From Clostridiaceae bacterium (GTDB taxonomy: Bacteria; Bacillota; Clostridia; Lachnospirales; Lachnospiraceae), in the NCBI GenBank assembly GCA_910574345.1, contig CAJSZV010000012.1, positions 1 through 64,000 on the forward strand: 64,000 bases of DNA, given 5' to 3'. How positions within the stretch are numbered: position 1 is the first letter of the stretch; every line of letters begins with the position of its first letter. This document shows, piece by piece, positions 25,078 through 33,425 of the stretch. The position numbers and the translations under genes are program-made. Under the pieces are notes generated by a model. It did no database searches. It was not told the origin of the DNA and saw only the letters and a list, made by a program, of their open reading frames with translations.

Positions 25078-25677
25078 CTACTGATATGTTCTCAGGATTC
25101 CTGTCATCTCTGTCTTTGTGTAGGTCTTTAATGTGATCTCTTTCCCATCAATATAGATAGTCGGCACTGACTTGACTTTCAAATCCTCTCTGGAATGTCT
25201 GACTGCCTCCTTCTCCTCTTTCCCGTAGATCCCATCAATCAAAGCCTGCTTAAAATCTTCCCGGTCAAGACCGCTCTCAGCCGCCAGATCCGACAGAAGC
25301 TCCATATCCCCTATGTCCTTCTCGTCAATAAAATAGGCACGGTAAACCTTGTCTCCATACACTTCCCCTTTTCCCTGCTCTTTGGCATAGAAATATCCTT
25401 CAAAGGCCAGTCTGGTATAAGGTCTTGGGCATATATTGGGCGGCAGTTTCATGTCCAGTCCCAGCTCCTTACATGGCTCCACCAGAAGCTGATAATGAGC
25501 CTTTCTCCTCTCGTCATGGCAGGTATCCACCCTGGGTTCGGGTTCCGCCGTGAGTTCCAAGGGCTGCAGGGTAATCTCAGCCTCCATGCCAAGCTCCTCA
25601 AGGGACTGTCTAAGGGCCTCCTTTGCCACCAGGCAGTAGGGACATACAAAGTCTGTCACAAATAAAATGTCCAGCAT
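25078..25677 (-). CDS. DsbA-family (FrnE-like) thioredoxin-fold oxidoreductase
   Basis: Thioredoxin-fold protein of 199 aa. The active-site CPYC is at about residues 13-16 (TDFVCPYCLVAKEALRQSLE), followed by a helical insert and the cis-Pro loop KSVPTIYIDGKEI near the C terminus, as in DsbA/FrnE proteins. No signal peptide, so probably a cytosolic disulfide oxidoreductase or glutathione-transferase-kappa-like enzyme. It lies 56 bases downstream of nothing related and precedes the ABC-F gene on the same strand. The substrate is unknown. Confidence 0.82.
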   Translation of the reverse strand: MLDILFVTDFVCPYCLVAKEALRQSLEELGMEAEITLQPLELTAEPEPRVDTCHDERRKAHYQLLVEPCKELGLDMKLPPNICPRPYTRLAFEGYFYAKEQGKGEVYGDKVYRAYFIDEKDIGDMELLSDLAAESGLDREDFKQALIDGIYGKEEKEAVRHSREDLKVKSVPTIYIDGKEITLKTYTKTEMTGILRTYQ

Positions 25678-25734
25678 AGCGATTCTCCTTCTTACAAATA
25701 TATTGTCTCGTTTTTTATTGTATCAGCCGCAGGG

Positions 25735-25850
25735 ACAAAATGCAAGTCTGTCAAAGCCCGGCGCATAAACTGTAACCTGGGTTCTGGATGGAGTGATCGT
25801 CAGCTCAGCCTCCCCTCCAATTTTCTTTGACAGTCTCGTTAAGATTCGCC
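25735..25850 (-). pseudogene. Possible gene-end remnant between the nuclease and DsbA-like genes
   Basis: On the minus strand the frame RILTRLSKKIGGEAELTITP, continuing SRTQVTVYAPGFDRLAFCPC and a stop, looks protein-like in composition. It has no start and resembles no family I know. It could be the 3' stub of a gene cut by arrival of the restriction system. Weak evidence. Confidence 0.2.
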
Positions 25851-27284
25851 TTATAATTCAAGGAGACGAATATCCATCTTCCGGCCAGACAGATAGTATT
25901 CGTATGCCATGGCCGCCGGAATAAGCCGTACCTTAATGCTTTGTAACCCCAGATTGGACAGCATCTCCATTGATGCTTCACCCCGAATCCCGATTTCTTT
26001 ATTCTCTGTCGGCATAAGGAAGCAGTTCTTTACTTCCGCGAAGCCATGATCCATAATGAACTTCTGATATGCCAGCTGATATAGATACTGCTTTGTTACA
26101 GATTCGATACCCGGCTGACCTTTTGGTGTTATTCCAGGCTCAAGCCGTACAATATAATATTTTGCATCAAAAATAATAAACTGATCCTCTGAAATGGTCA
26201 CCAGATCCGGAATCAGCGTATCCCCTGCCCTTTTCCCGGCCGCGCTCCACAGCGGCTTTTCAATCAGATCAATCAGCTTCCTGTCCCGGTCATATTCTGG
26301 TTTCAAAGGTATGGGCAGATTAAGGATTCCCAGCTGATTATCCAGCTGATTATCCATGATGTCAGCGCAGATGCTTTCCCATACCAGATTAAAACTGTTT
26401 GTCCCGAACAAGGAAAGACAATCCGTATCATACAGACTGCCGCTGTGATCAATATAGGCATATAATGTTTTTAGAATAAGCTGTTTTCTTGTGTTGAACT
26501 GCGTACTCAGTTCGTTTTCAATACGGTAAAGGATATATTCCGCTTCTCCAAACTCGTCCAGTTCCTCGTCTGTCAGATTGATTTCTGTGATTTGAAACAA
26601 GTCCAGAAGGTCTGCATCCTTCATCTCTTTTGACGCTTTCGTCAGGATACACTCATGCAGCCTTTTGAAATAATCAAAATCGTTCCTAACGCGCCTTTTC
26701 GTCCGCAAATCAATATAATAAGGCCGGTTATTGGAAAGCAGGGTAAAAGTTTCATTTATGGTCTTGTCCCACAGAATCTCTCCGAAACCGTTGCTTTCGA
26801 TGATATCCTCCGTATTGCTGTAAACTCCGTTCTCATAATAATCCTGAATCAGGAACAGAAGTACTGCCAGGAGATTAAAGGAACTGCTCTCGCTGCTGTC
26901 ATTGAACATGCGGATAATCTGCTCTTTGGAATTATATCTCTCAAGCACCTTAAGTATCTGACAAAGTTCTTCCCTTGGTTCCTTTGTACTGAGCAGATAC
27001 TTTGGATAACATTTCAGCGCACGTCCGGCCACTACTATGACGCCGACAAACGTAAAAACATACAGGTATTCCTTTTCTCCGGCTTCAACATCCGCAACTT
27101 CTACATCCTGGTCCATAAGGTCAGACATGTCACGCTGGGGATCTGAAGCTTTTACCGCTTTCAGTACCCCGAACTCTTTTAATTTCCGGATAATGGGAAC
27201 AACCTTTTCTTCAGAGCACTTGAACTTATCACACAAGTCTTTTTGTGTATATCTTTTCTGTTCTCTCAAAAACATTGAGATCAT
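25851..27284 (-). CDS. LlaJI/McrC-like restriction endonuclease subunit
   Basis: Predicted nuclease partner of the McrB-like motor, 477 aa. A winged-helix-like N terminus (RYTQKDLCDKFKCSEEKVVP) is followed by the McrC-type segment FVGVIVVAGRALKCYPKYLL and STKEPREELCQILKVLERYN. A C-terminal PD-(D/E)XK nuclease core follows, with LIPDLVTISEDQFIIFDAKY: the Asp, then Asp-Ala-Lys of the active site. I recognise the LlaJI restriction endonuclease family. Its ATG overlaps the McrB-like stop by four bases (ATGA), so the two are translated together. The product is expected to cut DNA when driven by the NTPase subunit. It is the last gene of a four-gene restriction-modification operon. Confidence 0.85.
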   Translation of the reverse strand: MISMFLREQKRYTQKDLCDKFKCSEEKVVPIIRKLKEFGVLKAVKASDPQRDMSDLMDQDVEVADVEAGEKEYLYVFTFVGVIVVAGRALKCYPKYLLSTKEPREELCQILKVLERYNSKEQIIRMFNDSSESSSFNLLAVLLFLIQDYYENGVYSNTEDIIESNGFGEILWDKTINETFTLLSNNRPYYIDLRTKRRVRNDFDYFKRLHECILTKASKEMKDADLLDLFQITEINLTDEELDEFGEAEYILYRIENELSTQFNTRKQLILKTLYAYIDHSGSLYDTDCLSLFGTNSFNLVWESICADIMDNQLDNQLGILNLPIPLKPEYDRDRKLIDLIEKPLWSAAGKRAGDTLIPDLVTISEDQFIIFDAKYYIVRLEPGITPKGQPGIESVTKQYLYQLAYQKFIMDHGFAEVKNCFLMPTENKEIGIRGEASMEMLSNLGLQSIKVRLIPAAMAYEYYLSGRKMDIRLLEL

Positions 27285-29218
27285 AGTTTAAGGCCCCAAA
27301 CCTTTACTCGATTTTGTATATCTGCATGGAATATACCGATACCCTGCTCATCAAAGGCCTCACAGATTTTTGAATACCGTGTCTGTCCCTTTTTGCTTCC
27401 CTCAAAAAGTCTTCCCCGTTTCTGCCTGGCGGCATCATCAAACAGATACATAAGTACCTTGTGTTTAAATACATGACAGAATCTCTCACTGTTAATCTCT
27501 GAACCACCGTCAGACGGAACCACAATATTCCTTGAAATGAAGTACGGACCCAGCTGCTTGTCTTCGTTTATCTTCTCGTCCGCCAGGAACTCATTAATGG
27601 CCATTCTCAGTTCATTCCATTCAATGCGCTGCTTTTCTTTTGAGCCGACAGTCACGTATTTGCCTCTGATATCCTTATCGCTGTCGTCAATGCCCAGATA
27701 GGTAAAGTCCCATCTTCTCTTAAATGCTGTATCCATGGGGAATACGCCCTGGTCAGCACTATTCATCGTTGCCCAGATAAACATATTGTCAGGAATACGG
27801 ATTGTTGAATACGCATCCGGCTCTCCGCCCAATTCCTTTGCCAGATAGTTCTTTATATCCTCTGAAGCCTGAATTGGATATTCGCTTACCTCATCATCAC
27901 CGCGGTCAAGCAGCTGAAACACATCGCCAAAGACCGCTGCCACATTTGCACGGTTGATCTCCTCAATAATCAGAAGATGGGGCTTCGGACTGCCTGTCCG
28001 GGCGTTCTTCAGCGCATTTACATACACGCGCATGAACGGGCCGGGAACATATTCGTAGGCAATATCGCTGCTCTTTTCTTTTCCTGATATCAATCTTACA
28101 TATTTCCTTATGGCCCTGCCATGGTTCCGTTCAACACTATTGTCATTGGCAGCATCGCTGCCGTCCTGTTTTCTGGTCCTGAATGCCTCATCTGTATAAA
28201 GCCCCAGCAGAACCGGAAGTCTTGTAAGGCCTTCATCCTTGAATCTTTCGAACAGCAAATCATATTTTTCCTGAGCAGCCCTGCTGCTGTCAGTCAGCAC
28301 GGAAAGAACATATTGCGTATCCTTGTCCGCCGGAAGCTTCCTCTCCTGCGCCGCCATGACAGGTTTATATGTACCCACAAAATTGGCATATGAATAATCC
28401 GGGTGGAATGTTACCCGCTCATAATCCGTCTCATTATCCTTTCCCAGTAATTGGATACGATCTCCGTTTATGGAAAAACTCTTGCCGGTTCCCGGCGCTC
28501 CGAACAAAATTCTGTTTCTGGAGAACTCGCTCTCCAAACCGGTTTTGAAGCAAACAGGCCTGCTGCACTCCGCCTCATCCGTCTCCCGCTGCCTGGTAAG
28601 GGGCGTATCGATGATATTTCCAAATGGATTATCTAAGGAATCTGCAAATTCAATGCTTTTCTCTTCTGTGCGCAGCACGCCCCTGCGTTCGCCTTCAAAC
28701 ATAGATTCAAGTCCAATTCCCTTTGGCCACGGCTCCGGCATCTTATGAACATTGATGAATCCGGCATAATATCTCCTGTATGTTGTCCTAATAATGGTTA
28801 TGAGAAGATCGTCTATTATTCCCGAAAAGTTTCCATCAGAAGTATACACTCCCTCACTGTCTTTTAGAGGTTCGGGAAATCCATTCCCAAGGGACCATGC
28901 CGGATGCTTATATTTCATATTCTGACGGCTTATTCTGTAGTTGTTTCGTCCCTTTCGCGGGGCAAACTCAATAAACGCCGCCTGTCCAGAGTTCCCCAGC
29001 ACATGGGCGTTAAATGTATAAATGGATCGCTCCTCCCCATTAAGGGGGCTATCCGAAACTTCGGCATAGCTCAAAAAATCCGCAATGCTGTCGTTGCTGA
29101 TCCCGGCGGCTTCCAGATATGTCTGACCGCCTCCGCTTTCCGGCTTGTCAATATCATAGAGCTTTTTGAAATCAGAAGGATTGATCTTTCTGTAAAATAT
29201 TCTGTCAATATATTCCAT
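27281..29218 (-). CDS. McrB-like AAA+ NTPase with N-terminal DNA-binding domain
   Basis: Motor and recognition subunit, 645 aa. The AAA+ module (about 235-600) has Walker A in RNRILFGAPGTGKSFSI, Walker B in HLLIIEEINRANVAAVFGDV and the McrB-type sensor ATMNSADQGVFPMDTAFKRR. The first about 210 residues (from GGGQTYLEAAGIS to APRKGRNNYRISRQNMKYKH) form a separate domain resembling B3/EcoRII-N type DNA-recognition domains of LlaJI-like systems. That assignment is inference. It forms the NTP-driven complex with the nuclease encoded next. The upstream genes are two adenine methyltransferases, so the motor should restrict DNA lacking their methylation rather than methylated DNA as in E. coli McrBC. 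Confidence 0.87.
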   Translation of the reverse strand: MEYIDRIFYRKINPSDFKKLYDIDKPESGGGQTYLEAAGISNDSIADFLSYAEVSDSPLNGEERSIYTFNAHVLGNSGQAAFIEFAPRKGRNNYRISRQNMKYKHPAWSLGNGFPEPLKDSEGVYTSDGNFSGIIDDLLITIIRTTYRRYYAGFINVHKMPEPWPKGIGLESMFEGERRGVLRTEEKSIEFADSLDNPFGNIIDTPLTRQRETDEAECSRPVCFKTGLESEFSRNRILFGAPGTGKSFSINGDRIQLLGKDNETDYERVTFHPDYSYANFVGTYKPVMAAQERKLPADKDTQYVLSVLTDSSRAAQEKYDLLFERFKDEGLTRLPVLLGLYTDEAFRTRKQDGSDAANDNSVERNHGRAIRKYVRLISGKEKSSDIAYEYVPGPFMRVYVNALKNARTGSPKPHLLIIEEINRANVAAVFGDVFQLLDRGDDEVSEYPIQASEDIKNYLAKELGGEPDAYSTIRIPDNMFIWATMNSADQGVFPMDTAFKRRWDFTYLGIDDSDKDIRGKYVTVGSKEKQRIEWNELRMAINEFLADEKINEDKQLGPYFISRNIVVPSDGGSEINSERFCHVFKHKVLMYLFDDAARQKRGRLFEGSKKGQTRYSKICEAFDEQGIGIFHADIQNRVKVWGLKL

Positions 29219-29239
29219 TTCCTTTTATCTTACCTTATC

Positions 29240-30289
29240 TTACCTTTCTACCGAGATTAAATATTCCTTTAATTTAGGCGGTAATTTGCTGTCATTACTT
29301 CGGAAGCGGTTATAATCTATTTCCATCACATCCACATTTCCTATCTTTCTAAAGCATTCTTCCAACTGTTCCAACGAAAACAGGCCGTCCTCGCTGTAGC
29401 TGATTAAAAACCGGTCACAGTGCATATCCGTCATTATCTTCTCGAAGGACTGAAGGCCTCTTGTCTTGGTACACAGCTTGGAGTGCTGATCCCACCAGTC
29501 ACGCAGTCCGCTTTTTCCTGCAGCATCAGGGAAATCGCCTCTTGCAATTGTTTCAAGAATGTGATAATTTGCAGCATACTGCCTTTTCATATAGGGCGGG
29601 TCAATATAACAAAGATCCGCCGTAATTAATCCGGCAAGATTCTCAGCGAATCCATGCATCACCCTGTGCCCTTCACTATTCTCTCTGTAAAGTTCCACCG
29701 GCTCCAGTTTAATAGCATTCTTTGCATTGTTTTTGAAGGAAGATAAAAAATATCCGTACGTGCCGGAAATGTTTGCCACCTCGTTCACCGCCATTATAAG
29801 CGTATGTTTCAAAAGCGATTCTTCTTTCGCAGTAATGCTTTCTGTTTTTATCCAGTCATTTATACATTCCCGTATGGCATCAATTTTTGCAGCATTTTCA
29901 GATGTGAAGTATTTTCTTGAAGGACTGCCATTCAACGGTTTGCCCTCCGGTGAAAATTCTCTGAAAAAGAAACTTTCCTTTGGCTTTAGTGCATTTAAAT
30001 ACTCCAAAATGCTTTTATATGGAGTTTCACTGTCACAGGTCTCACCTTTGATTTTCACCCCGGCAAATGCGGGAAAACCGCCTAATTGGAGATTGGTTAC
30101 CAAATGATGATATGTGTACGTCATTACATCTGAGGCCACAACAGAATAGCCCTGTTTCTTAAGTTCCAAAGCAACAGAACCGGTTCCGGCCATCACATCG
30201 GCAACCGTTCCCCCTTGGCCAATCATTTCATTTATCCTGCTCATAATGTGGGGCAGTAATTTTGTTTTATTACCGATATATCTATACAT
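29240..30289 (-). CDS. D12-class (Dam-like) N6-adenine DNA methyltransferase
   Basis: S-adenosylmethionine-dependent DNA methyltransferase of 349 aa. It starts with the D12-class signature MYRYIGNKTKLLPHIMSRIN. The AdoMet motif is VADVMAGTGSVALELKKQGY and the catalytic motif is LCYIDPPYMKRQYAANYHIL (DPPY), which indicates N6-adenine methylation. Alpha-class order. It is preceded by seven bases and the other methyltransferase and followed by the McrB-like gene. A second adenine methyltransferase in the same operon suggests an asymmetric recognition sequence with one enzyme per strand. Confidence 0.9.
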   Translation of the reverse strand: MYRYIGNKTKLLPHIMSRINEMIGQGGTVADVMAGTGSVALELKKQGYSVVASDVMTYTYHHLVTNLQLGGFPAFAGVKIKGETCDSETPYKSILEYLNALKPKESFFFREFSPEGKPLNGSPSRKYFTSENAAKIDAIRECINDWIKTESITAKEESLLKHTLIMAVNEVANISGTYGYFLSSFKNNAKNAIKLEPVELYRENSEGHRVMHGFAENLAGLITADLCYIDPPYMKRQYAANYHILETIARGDFPDAAGKSGLRDWWDQHSKLCTKTRGLQSFEKIMTDMHCDRFLISYSEDGLFSLEQLEECFRKIGNVDVMEIDYNRFRSNDSKLPPKLKEYLISVER

Positions 30290-30295
30290 GCAGCA

Positions 30296-31912
30296 TCAGG
30301 CCTCCACCTTCATATTGTTGATTGCACTCAAATCAGGAAGCCTGTTAATCTCAGCTGAAATTAAATGTTGTTCCTTCTTATTCAATCCATATTTTTTCAT
30401 TATCAGGTTCTCTAACTGCAGATCAGACTCACGGTCATATGTTCTCATAAGCCGCTTTGACAGCTCTGCTATCTCTTTATCGGTTTCATCCCCCTCATAT
30501 GGTCTTATGGGGAATGTGAAAATAATTTTCTTTGTCAGGTACGGATGAGATTTCCATTCATTTTCCCCATATACTTTGAGGTAATAATAATAAACAATTC
30601 TGGAATTTATAAGTGCTAAATAGTATTCCAATGGAACTTCCTCATTCAGACGCCTCAAGATATATACGGTCTGGCTTGTACATGTTCGGGAATAATCAAC
30701 AGCGCCATAAATCCCCAGCCCTGTTTTTCGTATAAGCAGCTTAGGCGGATTATACAGTTTTGGCGTCTTGTAATTAATTCCCTCTATCCCTGTCTTTATA
30801 TAACACCTTCCTTTTATACTATAACGCTGGATATTTTCTCCAACATATATAGGCACGCTCCCCGCTTCCTTCTTGGACATAATTACGTTTTCTGTTGTTG
30901 ACTCATTAACTGGTATTTCCTGCCCGCAATAGATGCATTCTTTATGGCCGGCCAAAAAATGTTTTTTTGAATATCCCTGAGCCATTCCGCAATAAGGGCA
31001 ATATACCACCTGACCTGATTTTGAAATTTCCACGCCGCGCCCAAAGGTGAATTCCTTTTCCCAGTCTATGGTATTTGAAGCAATCTTTTCAATCAATACC
31101 TCTTCGCTCTCGTGAGTATCAATATCAAAATGATAGGAGAGATTTTTTGAGAACCTTGACTGCCTTACAGTGTGTACTTTTTTCTCATAGAACAGAGACA
31201 ACGTCCCTCTCCCGGCAAGATATGCCTTTCTGTCGTCTGTAGATAGCCTGAAGCATTCTGTCATCGATTCATCATTCGGCATCTCTTTCCTGCAGATGAT
31301 TACGGTAGCAGCCCGATTTACCTCGTCAAAAATCTTTTCGCCAAGTCTTGCAATAACCTTAATCTGCATATTCTCCGTCAGGAATCGTCTGAGATTTTCA
31401 TTTTGTGCATCAAACAAGGAGTCGGGGAGAATAAATGCCATTGTCCCCTGATCACGCAGTATTTTATATGCCAGCTCAATAAAAAGAACGTAGCTGTCAT
31501 ACTGACCAGCTGTTAATGAATATCCGGCCTGAGACAGTTTTTGTCTTTCATAAACCTTTTCAGAACTCCACGGCGGATTTGCAATAATGGCGTCAACCTG
31601 ATGCAGCTTTTTTCTCCAGTAACTGCCTGGATTATTCTTGACATTTTTCGGGAGGATCGCATCGTTGTGAATAATAGTAAACCCTGATCTGGTTCTTCCA
31701 GCGGCTTCTATATCTATATCTATTCCTGCATATTGATGCATATCTCCAAAATATTTTTTTGCGGCCTTTAACAACGAGCATTCACCGCTGGCCGGATCAA
31801 GGATCAATGCACCACTGCCCGGTTCGATATCCGAAAAGCGGTGTAGCAAAGCTGCAACAAAGTCTGCCAGCGTATCCGGCGTGTAAACTACACCATATTT
31901 CTGATTTATCAT
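30296..31912 (-). CDS. N6-adenine DNA methyltransferase (Eco57I/TaqI type) with internal zinc ribbon
   Basis: Methyltransferase of 538 aa, first gene of the restriction operon. Motif I is LILDPASGECSLLKAAKKYF and motif IV is DAIIANPPWSSEKVYERQKL (NPPW, N6-adenine type), with MAFILPDSLFDAQNENLRRF following. The C-terminal half contains a compact zinc-ribbon-like insert with CPYC and CIYC pairs about 25 residues apart (around residues 298-330). Then comes a target-recognition-like region (RRLNEEVPLEYYLALINSRI) as in Eco57I-type enzymes. A TTGGAGGG site precedes the ATG. Upstream at 31913-32060 the region is AT-rich and likely contains the operon promoter, but no convincing boxes were found. Confidence 0.88.
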   Translation of the reverse strand: MINQKYGVVYTPDTLADFVAALLHRFSDIEPGSGALILDPASGECSLLKAAKKYFGDMHQYAGIDIDIEAAGRTRSGFTIIHNDAILPKNVKNNPGSYWRKKLHQVDAIIANPPWSSEKVYERQKLSQAGYSLTAGQYDSYVLFIELAYKILRDQGTMAFILPDSLFDAQNENLRRFLTENMQIKVIARLGEKIFDEVNRAATVIICRKEMPNDESMTECFRLSTDDRKAYLAGRGTLSLFYEKKVHTVRQSRFSKNLSYHFDIDTHESEEVLIEKIASNTIDWEKEFTFGRGVEISKSGQVVYCPYCGMAQGYSKKHFLAGHKECIYCGQEIPVNESTTENVIMSKKEAGSVPIYVGENIQRYSIKGRCYIKTGIEGINYKTPKLYNPPKLLIRKTGLGIYGAVDYSRTCTSQTVYILRRLNEEVPLEYYLALINSRIVYYYYLKVYGENEWKSHPYLTKKIIFTFPIRPYEGDETDKEIAELSKRLMRTYDRESDLQLENLIMKKYGLNKKEQHLISAEINRLPDLSAINNMKVEA

Positions 31913-32067
31913 GGTAACCCTCCAAGTATCATTTAGAACTTATTTCTCCTCAATATACCAGCTCACAGCTCACCTCTTAAACTCCAAACCTATATACTCT
32001 CCGTGAACAAGGGAACAAAACCATTTTATATAATACTATAAAACAGTTCTGTTCTCAATATTTTTAT

Positions 32068-32173
32068 GTTATGATACCAGGGTCTAAAGGTCTAAAATCC
32101 GATGCAGGCTTGCTTGCAAGAGGATTTTTGAACTTGAGACCCGCCAAAATTTTGACCCCAACATCATGTTATA
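32068..32173. repeat. Palindromic intergenic repeat, long form
   Basis: The outer blocks ATGATACCAGGGTC and TTTTGACCCCAACATCAT match the palindrome at 1404-1453. An insert of about 60 bases with its own symmetry lies between them (GGTCT near 32090 with AGACC near 32138, ATCC near 32097 with GGAT near 32132, and CTTGCTTGCAAG in the centre). It appears to be a second, extended member of the same family. It lies between the divergent methyltransferase and aldolase genes. Confidence 0.65.
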
Positions 32174-32194
32174 CAATTTCAATCACCCCCATGC

Positions 32195-32293
32195 ATATCT
32201 GCGCTCCGTTTCCGTCACTGCCAAGGGTGCGTCGCTGGCGCACAGCAGAGCCGAAGTCAAGCCGGTTTGATCCTGGCGCCTTGCTTTCGTGAG
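32195..32293. repeat. Modular intergenic repeat, copy 1
   Basis: It contains GCGCTCCGTTTCCGTC, GTGCGTCGCTGGCGCAC, AAGTCAAGCCGGTTTGA and CCTTGCTTTCGTGAGAATAA. Closely similar modules (ACGCTCCGCTTCGGTC, GTGCCACTGGCAC, AAGTCAAGCCAGCTTGA, CCTTGCCTTCGCGAGAATAA) occur at 51752-51886 in a different order. No coding potential is apparent. The remainder of 31913-32399 contains only the other repeat and AT-rich flanks. Confidence 0.6.
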
Positions 32294-32399
32294 AATAAAC
32301 ATTGCCCTAATATGTCAGCTGTGCTACAATACATGAAGAAAATAACCGTATTCTTTTATCACTAAGATAATTCTTGCAGAAAGAGAGGAATATACGCAC

Positions 32400-33425
32400 A
32401 TGTACAGCTTTACCAACGATTACAGCGAAGGAGCCCATCCCCGGATTCTTAAGGCCATGCTGGAGGCCAACCTTACTCAGAACACAGGCTACAGCTTAGA
32501 CACCCATACCGGCCATGCCATAGAGCTGATAAAAAAAGAGATCTGCTGCCATGAGGCGGATATCCACATTATCGTAGGCGGCACCCAGACTAATCTCATC
32601 GCCATCTCCGCCGCCCTGCGTCCTTTCCAGGCAGTGATCTCTGCATCCACCGGCCATATCAATGTCCATGAGACAGGCGCCATCGAGGCCACGGGACACA
32701 AGGTCTTAGCCATGACTGCCCCCGACGGCAGGCTGACCCCGGCACTTGTTCAGGAGGCCCTTGATTTCCACACGGATGAACATATGGTGCAGCCCAAGAT
32801 GGTCTACATCTCCAACTCCACGGAGATCGGAACCCAGTATACCAAGACAGAACTTGAAGCCCTGTCCCGTTTTTGCCGCCTTCATGATCTCTATCTGTTC
32901 ATGGACGGAGCACGCATGGGAGCTGCTCTTACAAGTCCTGTCAATGACTTAACCCTGGCGGACATTGCCCGCCTGACCGATGTGTTCTACATCGGCGGCA
33001 CCAAGAACGGAGCTCTCTTCGGGGAAGCTCTTGTGATTACACGGGAGGAATTAAAAGCCGATTTCCGGTTTATGATCAAGCAGAGAGGCGCCATGCTGGC
33101 CAAAGGATGGCTTCTGGGAATCCAGTTTGAGGAGCTGTTCCAGAACGACTTATTCTATGACATGGCCCGTCATGCCAATGCCATGGCCTCCGTACTCCGG
33201 GACGCTCTGACAGAATGCGGCTATTCCTTTGCCTACGATTCCATGACCAACCAGCTGTTCCCCATCTTCTCTGATGAGACCATTGAAAAGCTGGCACAGC
33301 ACTTTACCTTTAACATGGACAGACGGATGGATGAGACCCACTCCGCTATCCGCCTGGTGACCTCCTGGGCTACCACCGAGGAGGGAGTCCGGGAATTTGT
33401 GGAGTTTATCCGCGGACTCAGATAG
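32400..33425 (+). CDS. Threonine aldolase-family PLP enzyme
   Basis: PLP-dependent beta-eliminating lyase/aldolase of 341 aa, resembling low-specificity L-threonine aldolase (threonine or allo-threonine to glycine plus acetaldehyde). It begins MYSFTNDYSEGAHPRILKAM, has IIVGGTQTNLIAISAAL, the ring-stacking Asp in LYLFMDGARMGAALTSP and the Schiff-base lysine in YIGGTKNGALFGEALVI. Cytosolic. Ribosome site AGAGAGG ten bases before the ATG. It stands alone and ends at a strong bidirectional terminator. Other beta-hydroxy amino acids could be substrates. Confidence 0.9.
   Translation: MYSFTNDYSEGAHPRILKAMLEANLTQNTGYSLDTHTGHAIELIKKEICCHEADIHIIVGGTQTNLIAISAALRPFQAVISASTGHINVHETGAIEATGHKVLAMTAPDGRLTPALVQEALDFHTDEHMVQPKMVYISNSTEIGTQYTKTELEALSRFCRLHDLYLFMDGARMGAALTSPVNDLTLADIARLTDVFYIGGTKNGALFGEALVITREELKADFRFMIKQRGAMLAKGWLLGIQFEELFQNDLFYDMARHANAMASVLRDALTECGYSFAYDSMTNQLFPIFSDETIEKLAQHFTFNMDRRMDETHSAIRLVTSWATTEEGVREFVEFIRGLR

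Follow-up and report, generated by a model that had tools for sequence, protein, structure and literature searches.

A two-adenine-methylase operon of the McrBC-related Type II kind, with a specificity module apparently recombined onto a LlaJI-type chassis

The window analysed here is a 64,000-nucleotide (nt) stretch of contig CAJSZV010000012.1, from the Lachnospiraceae genome assembly GCA_910574345.1. It carries a restriction-modification operon encoding two unlike N6-adenine methyltransferases (M1 and M2), a McrB-like AAA+ protein (R1) and a LlaJI-type endonuclease subunit (R2). The operon is best read as a Type II system on a McrBC-like machine, in which the methylase pair and a probable B3-type domain at the N-terminus of R1 have been recombined onto a LlaJI-type chassis, the R1 motor plus R2; we place this joint reading at about 80%. 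Adenine methylases on this chassis are not new, and the pairing of an Eco57I-type with a D12-class enzyme is by itself a variant. What is new is the modular build: both methylases, together with the R1 N-domain, appear to make up a portable unit. The system is real, intact and probably mobile.

A mosaic with its junction inside R1

The mosaic was delimited by BLAST comparison over 101 loci (L-numbers) with 1374 open reading frames (ORFs), the window not counted. Matches to the module stop at R1 residue 200–203, and matches to the chassis begin at about residue 212–226; in nucleotide comparison, five chassis relatives all begin to match inside the same 42 nt (window 28552–28510). On the chassis side, L039 is 84% identical to the window in both motor and R2 and has two cytosine-C5 (C5) methylase genes, yet its N-domain and methylases have no BLAST similarity to those of the window. 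The wider group to which it belongs (L011 and L013–L039, 28 loci) gives BLAST segments 60–86% identical in the motor and 63–84% in R2, and none of its members matches M1, M2 or the N-domain by BLAST. On the module side the relation is reversed: the viral contigs L099–L101 are 56–59% identical to the window in M1, 67–74% in M2 and 63–76% in R1 residues 1–203, but 30–37% in the motor and 21–26% in R2 (L100 is without M1 because the contig stops there). L012 is similar to the window along the whole system (67–84%). Apart from L012, the window motor and R2 are closest in sequence to C5-methylase systems with unrelated R1 N-domains. The comparison shows M1, M2 and the probable B3 domain behaving as a co-inherited specificity module which, judging from sequence, was recombined onto a LlaJI-type chassis.

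The same pattern of sharing could in principle arise without recombination, if one ancestral system had diverged and lost parts in separate lines: every row finds a place in the trees, and chassis relatives are many and diverged. Such a history sits badly with the L039 comparison, in which motor and R2 stay close while no similarity is left in the N-domain and methylases, and with L099, which is 76% identical to the window in the N-domain and 30% in the motor across a sharp junction; it is very improbable.

The R2 tree puts the window together with L012, L039 and L011 (support 98/80, 100/99), and the R2 of L099 pairs with the LlaJI of pNP40 (support 100/98). The tree is midpoint-rooted and some of its branches are long (L095 and L101 among them), and only the window neighbourhood and the L099–pNP40 pairing were used. 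The label for two N6-adenine methylases (N6+N6) changes 4 times on it, against a mean of 4.9 in shuffled labels, which is little different. Because of the long branches and the near-shuffled label, the mosaic and not the tree carries the argument.

Elsewhere the module is sparse. An N-domain profile finds it only in the window's own genome (1 of 398 genomes of the phylum), as does an M1 profile at E 1e-60 (1 of 391 genomes of the class). Alignment of M1 against viral contigs gave three loci, two of them in the set already; the third, L114 (24%), is without the module.

A convergent gene for a protein of ~400 amino acids (aa) stands right after R2 in the viral contigs (L099:10154-11380, L101:9949-11172, L100:4071-5255). 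Its product ends in a CGNR zinc finger in L099 and L101 (Pfam), and it is a possible regulator or accessory gene.

The module beside HNH nucleases

More distant versions of the module adjoin nucleases of another kind. In Paracoccus and Roseobacter plasmids (L091, L096), genes like M1 and M2 (~35% and 48–49% identity, respectively) keep the order of the window, and a convergent gene next to them encodes a 372–377-aa protein that bears an HNH domain at its C-terminus (Pfam, L091). L097, a third plasmid, repeats this arrangement but has M1 and M2 in pieces; all three plasmids are alphaproteobacterial. Seven viral contigs reached through D12 alignment (L105–L111) are arranged likewise, and in three of them M1 runs off the end of the contig. 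About 200 residues at the N-terminus of the HNH protein align to the R1 N-domain (23% identity and E 2e-7 by BLASTP in the case of L091), and hhalign of the R1 N-domain group against the HNH group gives a colinear match (probability 97%, E 1.2e-10). These systems share with the window a related methylase pair and a homologous N-domain; they differ in having a single HNH nuclease protein on the opposite strand where the window has R1 and R2, and BLAST gave no match to a McrB-like motor in the HNH-type loci.

A profile of five R1 N-domains matches 14 of the 101 loci, namely four of its own rows and the ten HNH loci (weakest L096 and L097, E 7e-4); up to E 10, nothing else among the ORFs matches. 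M2 relatives are present in all 14, and M1 or part of it in 13, L100 stopping at M2. The reverse search with the HNH protein returns the same three plasmids near full length and the same seven viral contigs; no phage match covers 80% of it, and PDB matches it through the HNH end only. Plasmid records with a D12 relative number 108; of six examined, the best three have the module and the other three (29–35% identity) do not. Loci were found partly through the very parts being associated, and some selection remains in these counts.

The module is associated with different McrB/LlaJI chassis and, more distantly, with HNH nucleases; a common function in these settings is what we infer. It is likely that the Eco57I-type and D12 methylases and the B3 domain move together between cutters that are unrelated or diverged long ago, of which there are at least three (two McrB/LlaJI complexes and a motor-less HNH enzyme).

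The two methylases might instead serve two independent targets, one guarding against R1/R2 and the other being an orphan or left over from a lost nuclease. One enzyme can suffice on this chassis, as the single D12-type enzymes of L073 (Pfam) and L087 (motif only) indicate. But the same pair in the same order recurs in L012, L099 and L101 and, more distantly, in the HNH loci, with a related N-domain each time, and we hold two separate targets to be unlikely. A pair of unrelated orphan methylases was also considered and dropped.

In L108, L109 and L111 the HNH-type system adjoins apparent phage terminase and portal genes (judged without a family search), which suggests that phage structural regions carry whole restriction systems along with them.

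Operon and component proteins

Four intact genes lie on the minus strand and are transcribed in the order M1, M2, R1, R2 (Table 1), with outer gene ends at exactly 25851–31912. They form one operon: M1 and M2 are 6 bp apart, M2 and R1 21 bp, and R1 and R2 overlap by 4 bp. Catalytic motifs are present. With full-length relatives and the sole LlaJI gene found in its genome, the set is far beyond chance. The initial annotation had recognised McrB/LlaJI-type restriction genes together with two unlike N6-adenine methyltransferases, and Pfam agrees; it had rightly put both methylases ahead of R1 and R2 but named the D12 gene first, where the Eco57I-type gene actually leads. It had overlooked the module that links the methylases to the R1 N-domain and recurs on other nuclease chassis.

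Table 1. Features of the operon and its surroundings, in window positions
Feature	Positions	Strand	Length or basis
M1, Eco57I/TaqI-type N6-adenine methyltransferase	30296..31912	-	538 aa; Pfam, motifs
M2, D12-class N6-adenine methyltransferase	29240..30289	-	349 aa; PF02086, DPPY
R1, McrB-like AAA+ protein, whole gene	27281..29218	-	645 aa; AAA_5
R1 residues 1-203, probable B3-type DNA-recognition domain (predicted target reader)	28610..29218	-	
Module junction in R1, residues about 203-222	28552..28610	-	module similarity stops, chassis similarity starts
R1 motor, McrB-like AAA+ NTPase domain	27281..28554	-	AAA_5, PDB McrB, PADLOC, motifs
R2, LlaJI-type (McrC-like) PD-(D/E)xK endonuclease subunit	25851..27284	-	477 aa; PF09563
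Segment missing from two congeners	25693..32399		flanking genes adjacent there

M1 matches PF02384 (1.1e-19), PF07669 (6.3e-18) and PF12950 (2.8e-17) and has the motif NPPW at residue 112. Ahead of its TaqI_C specificity domain lies a zinc-ribbon-like CxxC...CxxC insert (residues 305–329, pairs at 305 and 326), all four cysteines of which are invariant in the five aligned sequences, the window included. M2 matches PF02086 (3.3e-29), with DPPY at residue 230, and a sequence search of PDB found no match for it. It is 29.5% identical to the N-terminal half of a 675-aa methylase adjoining a FokI-type nuclease and 31.5% to an annotated LlaI methylase; on these alignments it resembles the N-terminal half of FokI/LlaI-type D12 enzymes. 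Enzymes of that type serve asymmetric targets, and the likeness therefore fits an asymmetric target for M2 without proving it. Five more D12 methylase genes or pieces lie elsewhere in the window genome (contigs 6, 18, 26, 27 and 77).

The R1 motor is recognised by AAA_5 (1.7e-8), the sole Pfam family found in R1 up to E 0.1, and by a McrB chain in PDB (1.8e-12). It has Walker A GAPGTGKS at residue 240, IIEEINRAN at 417 and MNSAD at 485, the last being the NxxD form of the McrB signature; GTPases of this form are linked to DNA methyltransferases in PMC11090510. R2 matches RE_LlaJI (PF09563, 1.1e-47) and carries PD-x12-DAK at residues 359–375; no PDB sequence matched it. PADLOC assigns R1 to PDLC03448 (8.6e-171) and R2 to PDLC03447 (9.6e-166), which are consecutively numbered Type II restriction models. 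A second LlaJI gene was not found in the window's own 5.6-Mb genome, and R2 had no match in any of 25 further genomes from the genus, of which several are incomplete.

Residues 1–203 of R1 are a probable B3-type DNA-recognition domain on the evidence of a structural model, which resembles B3 domains, among them that of Helicobacter pylori LlaJI.R1. B3 rows head the structure-match list, which leaves room for other folds, the modified-base readers of Type IV McrBC (DUF3578, EVE, YTH, SRA) among them; Foldseek alone gave no match under E 0.001, and the N-domain profile no PDB sequence match up to E 5. A model built from the five R1 N-domains alone (predicted local distance difference test score 42.5) was discarded.

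Relative to L012, the window R1 is without about 22 C-terminal residues (27281–27360), and the window/L012 DNA match has a ~74 bp gap directly before R2. The function of R1 may survive this shortening, since the tail is poorly conserved.

Assignment to the McrBC-related Type II systems

The system is a McrBC-related Type II restriction-modification system of the LlaJI/LlaI/BsuMI kind. A McrB-like AAA+ protein is encoded beside a LlaJI-type PD-(D/E)xK partner, two methyltransferase genes, presumably cognate, lie in the operon, and the R1 N-domain is predicted from its model to be of the site-specific kind, as is the B3 domain of H. pylori LlaJI.R1, and probably not of the modification-reading kind. 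A Type IV (modification-dependent) McrBC standing beside two methylase genes by chance was weighed too. The R1 motor does resemble Escherichia coli McrB, and PMC11090510 describes McrB GTPases as often associated with DNA methyltransferases. Set against this, R2 is LlaJI-type, the modelled R1 N-domain resembles B3 domains, a related N-domain occurs in HNH nucleases adjoining related methylases, and an enzyme cutting N6-methyladenine at the module's own target would attack the host. A Type IV system should have no cognate methyltransferase, and the operon has two methylase genes; this assignment was dropped as highly improbable.

For the Type II system, the working model is as follows. M1 and M2 would methylate adenines in the host copies of one target, which is most likely asymmetric and shared out so that each enzyme serves one strand, and the B3-like domain of R1 would bind the same target when it is unmethylated. 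By analogy with McrBC, the R1 AAA+ ring would use a nucleoside triphosphate (NTP), probably guanosine triphosphate, to move DNA, and the moving ring would drive the R2 PD-(D/E)xK nuclease to cut.

Comparison with known systems

The LlaJI operon of Lactococcus plasmid pNP40 (L117) has in common with the window the order M-M-R1-R2, a McrB-like R1 and a LlaJI-family R2. The initial annotation had set the two apart, correctly: both LlaJI methylases are cytosine enzymes, whereas both window methylases belong to N6-adenine families, which excludes the window from a two-C5 definition. In BLAST segments the R1 motor is 36% and R2 22% identical, and the N-domain has no match. LlaJI recognises GACGC/GCGTC and regulates itself through its target sites. 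A k-mer search through upstream regions, made to find a shared target-like repeat, returned mostly A/T-rich words, and neither supports nor excludes such autoregulation. A passage of PMC1459862 describes the LlaJI methylase pair as acting on an asymmetric site.

Other plasmids combine this chassis with D12 enzymes. E. coli pTE_T100_3 (L095) has AAA and LlaJI genes with two N6-adenine methylases, as in the window, but both are D12 and convergent with the restriction genes, and an Eco57I-type enzyme and an N-domain profile match are absent. A Lactobacillus amylovorus plasmid encodes a 620-aa D12 protein with a McrB-like match nearby. Lactococcal plasmid locus L116, which we take to be LlaI-like (of the pTR2030 kind), shares with the window a D12 methylase, a McrB-like protein and a LlaJI-family nuclease; its D12 gene is broken and its AAA protein has 337 aa. 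LlaI has a double D12 methylase. The window system falls outside LlaI: its Eco57I-type and D12 enzymes are two proteins, R1 is full and has an N-domain, and the restriction genes are two. According to PMC1459862, LlaI and BsuMI (Bacillus subtilis) have three-ORF restriction cassettes with small McrB-like proteins of 337 and 343 aa, respectively. Of 14 control genomes, B. subtilis alone has an RE_LlaJI match. The BsuMI methylases are C5 enzymes.

A passage of PMC2614495 treats BsuMI as a McrB-related Type II system and describes relatives of McrBC, a branch called 'type II R-like', that come with two methylases. With this kind already in print and adenine methylases on the chassis having precedents, the pairing is a variant combination, as the initial annotation had said. 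Among the open-access papers searched, none was seen that treats LlaJI genes accompanied by an Eco57I-type and a D12 enzyme, and none on B3-HNH restriction enzymes.

Methylases beside LlaJI-type chassis

R2 relatives were collected by a pattern-based scan, one genome per species; 97 were obtained and the best 80 kept. Their neighbouring methylases are C5+C5 (30 loci), one C5 (17), C5 plus an N4/N6 enzyme (6), a single D12-type (2), a fused C5-Eco57I-like enzyme (2), three or four C5 genes or pieces (2), N6+N6 (1, L012) and none found (20). Where a methylase is seen, the usual partners of the chassis are C5 enzymes. The initial annotation had called for a search for the same four-gene order; among the best 80 of the 97 relatives, L012 is the sole locus with the identical set.

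Labels were assigned by hand: 'none' includes loci cut by contig ends, and single C5 labels can hide a second gene. L044 is labelled C5 despite a distant Eco57I-like gene (26% identity, 475 aa) about 3.4 kb downstream, L063 and L066 are labelled fused C5-N6 with Pfam support for L063 only, and motif-only matches in L026 and L065 were disregarded. L007–L009 stand outside the counts (L007 and L008 look identical to contigs L045 and L065), and L102–L104, L112–L113 and L119–L125 are contigs counted already under other numbers.

Several loci in the survey have features of their own. L063 (35-2461) and L066 (3550-5976) encode 808-aa proteins adjoining LlaJI genes; that of L063 is a C5 methylase fused to an Eco57I-like domain, that of L066 looks like it, and each is possibly two strand-specific enzymes in one chain. 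One adenine-type methylase is seen with the LlaJI chassis in L073 (5405-6256, D12 by Pfam) and L087 (5176-6036, DPPY motif only), and a palindromic target would be expected there. R1/R2 relatives in Methanobrevibacter and Methanosphaera (L078, L084, L085, L088, L089, L090) have no methylase found nearby; these are possibly overlooked methylases or another system type. R2 proteins are identical and methylase lengths equal in L037, L038 and L057 (Bacillus, Lysinibacillus, Robertmurraya), which indicates recent transfer.

Genomic site and mobility

The operon looks inserted when the window is aligned with its congeners. In two of them, G006 (L128) and G005 (L131), a DsbA-like gene (25078–25677 in the window) adjoins the gene at 32400, and the flank matches are about 160 bp and 260 bp apart, respectively, against 6.7 kb in the window. 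In L129, L130 and L132 it is the window's ABC-F gene that adjoins the gene at 32400. For the other 6 of the 11 congener loci (L127 and L133–L137; L127 closest, 85%), the left flank is unmatched within the stretch compared. A comparison of the sequences on either side of the four genes gave no direct repeat of at least 9 bases.

Significance

The main interest lies in a specificity module common, at differing divergence, to motor-driven and motor-less nucleases. The junction in R1 (residues about 203–222) offers a clear case of recombination at a domain boundary, by which McrB-like enzymes would gain targets together with the matching methylases. If the module does move as a whole, Type II systems evolve by swapping an entire recognition-and-protection kit onto another cutter, and nature offers both NTP-driven and NTP-free enzymes, alike or related in target, for direct comparison. 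If one target, or closely related ones, is used in all three settings, these systems are matched and differ chiefly in the machine that cuts; they would show what a McrBC-type motor adds over a simple nuclease when target and protection are held nearly constant.
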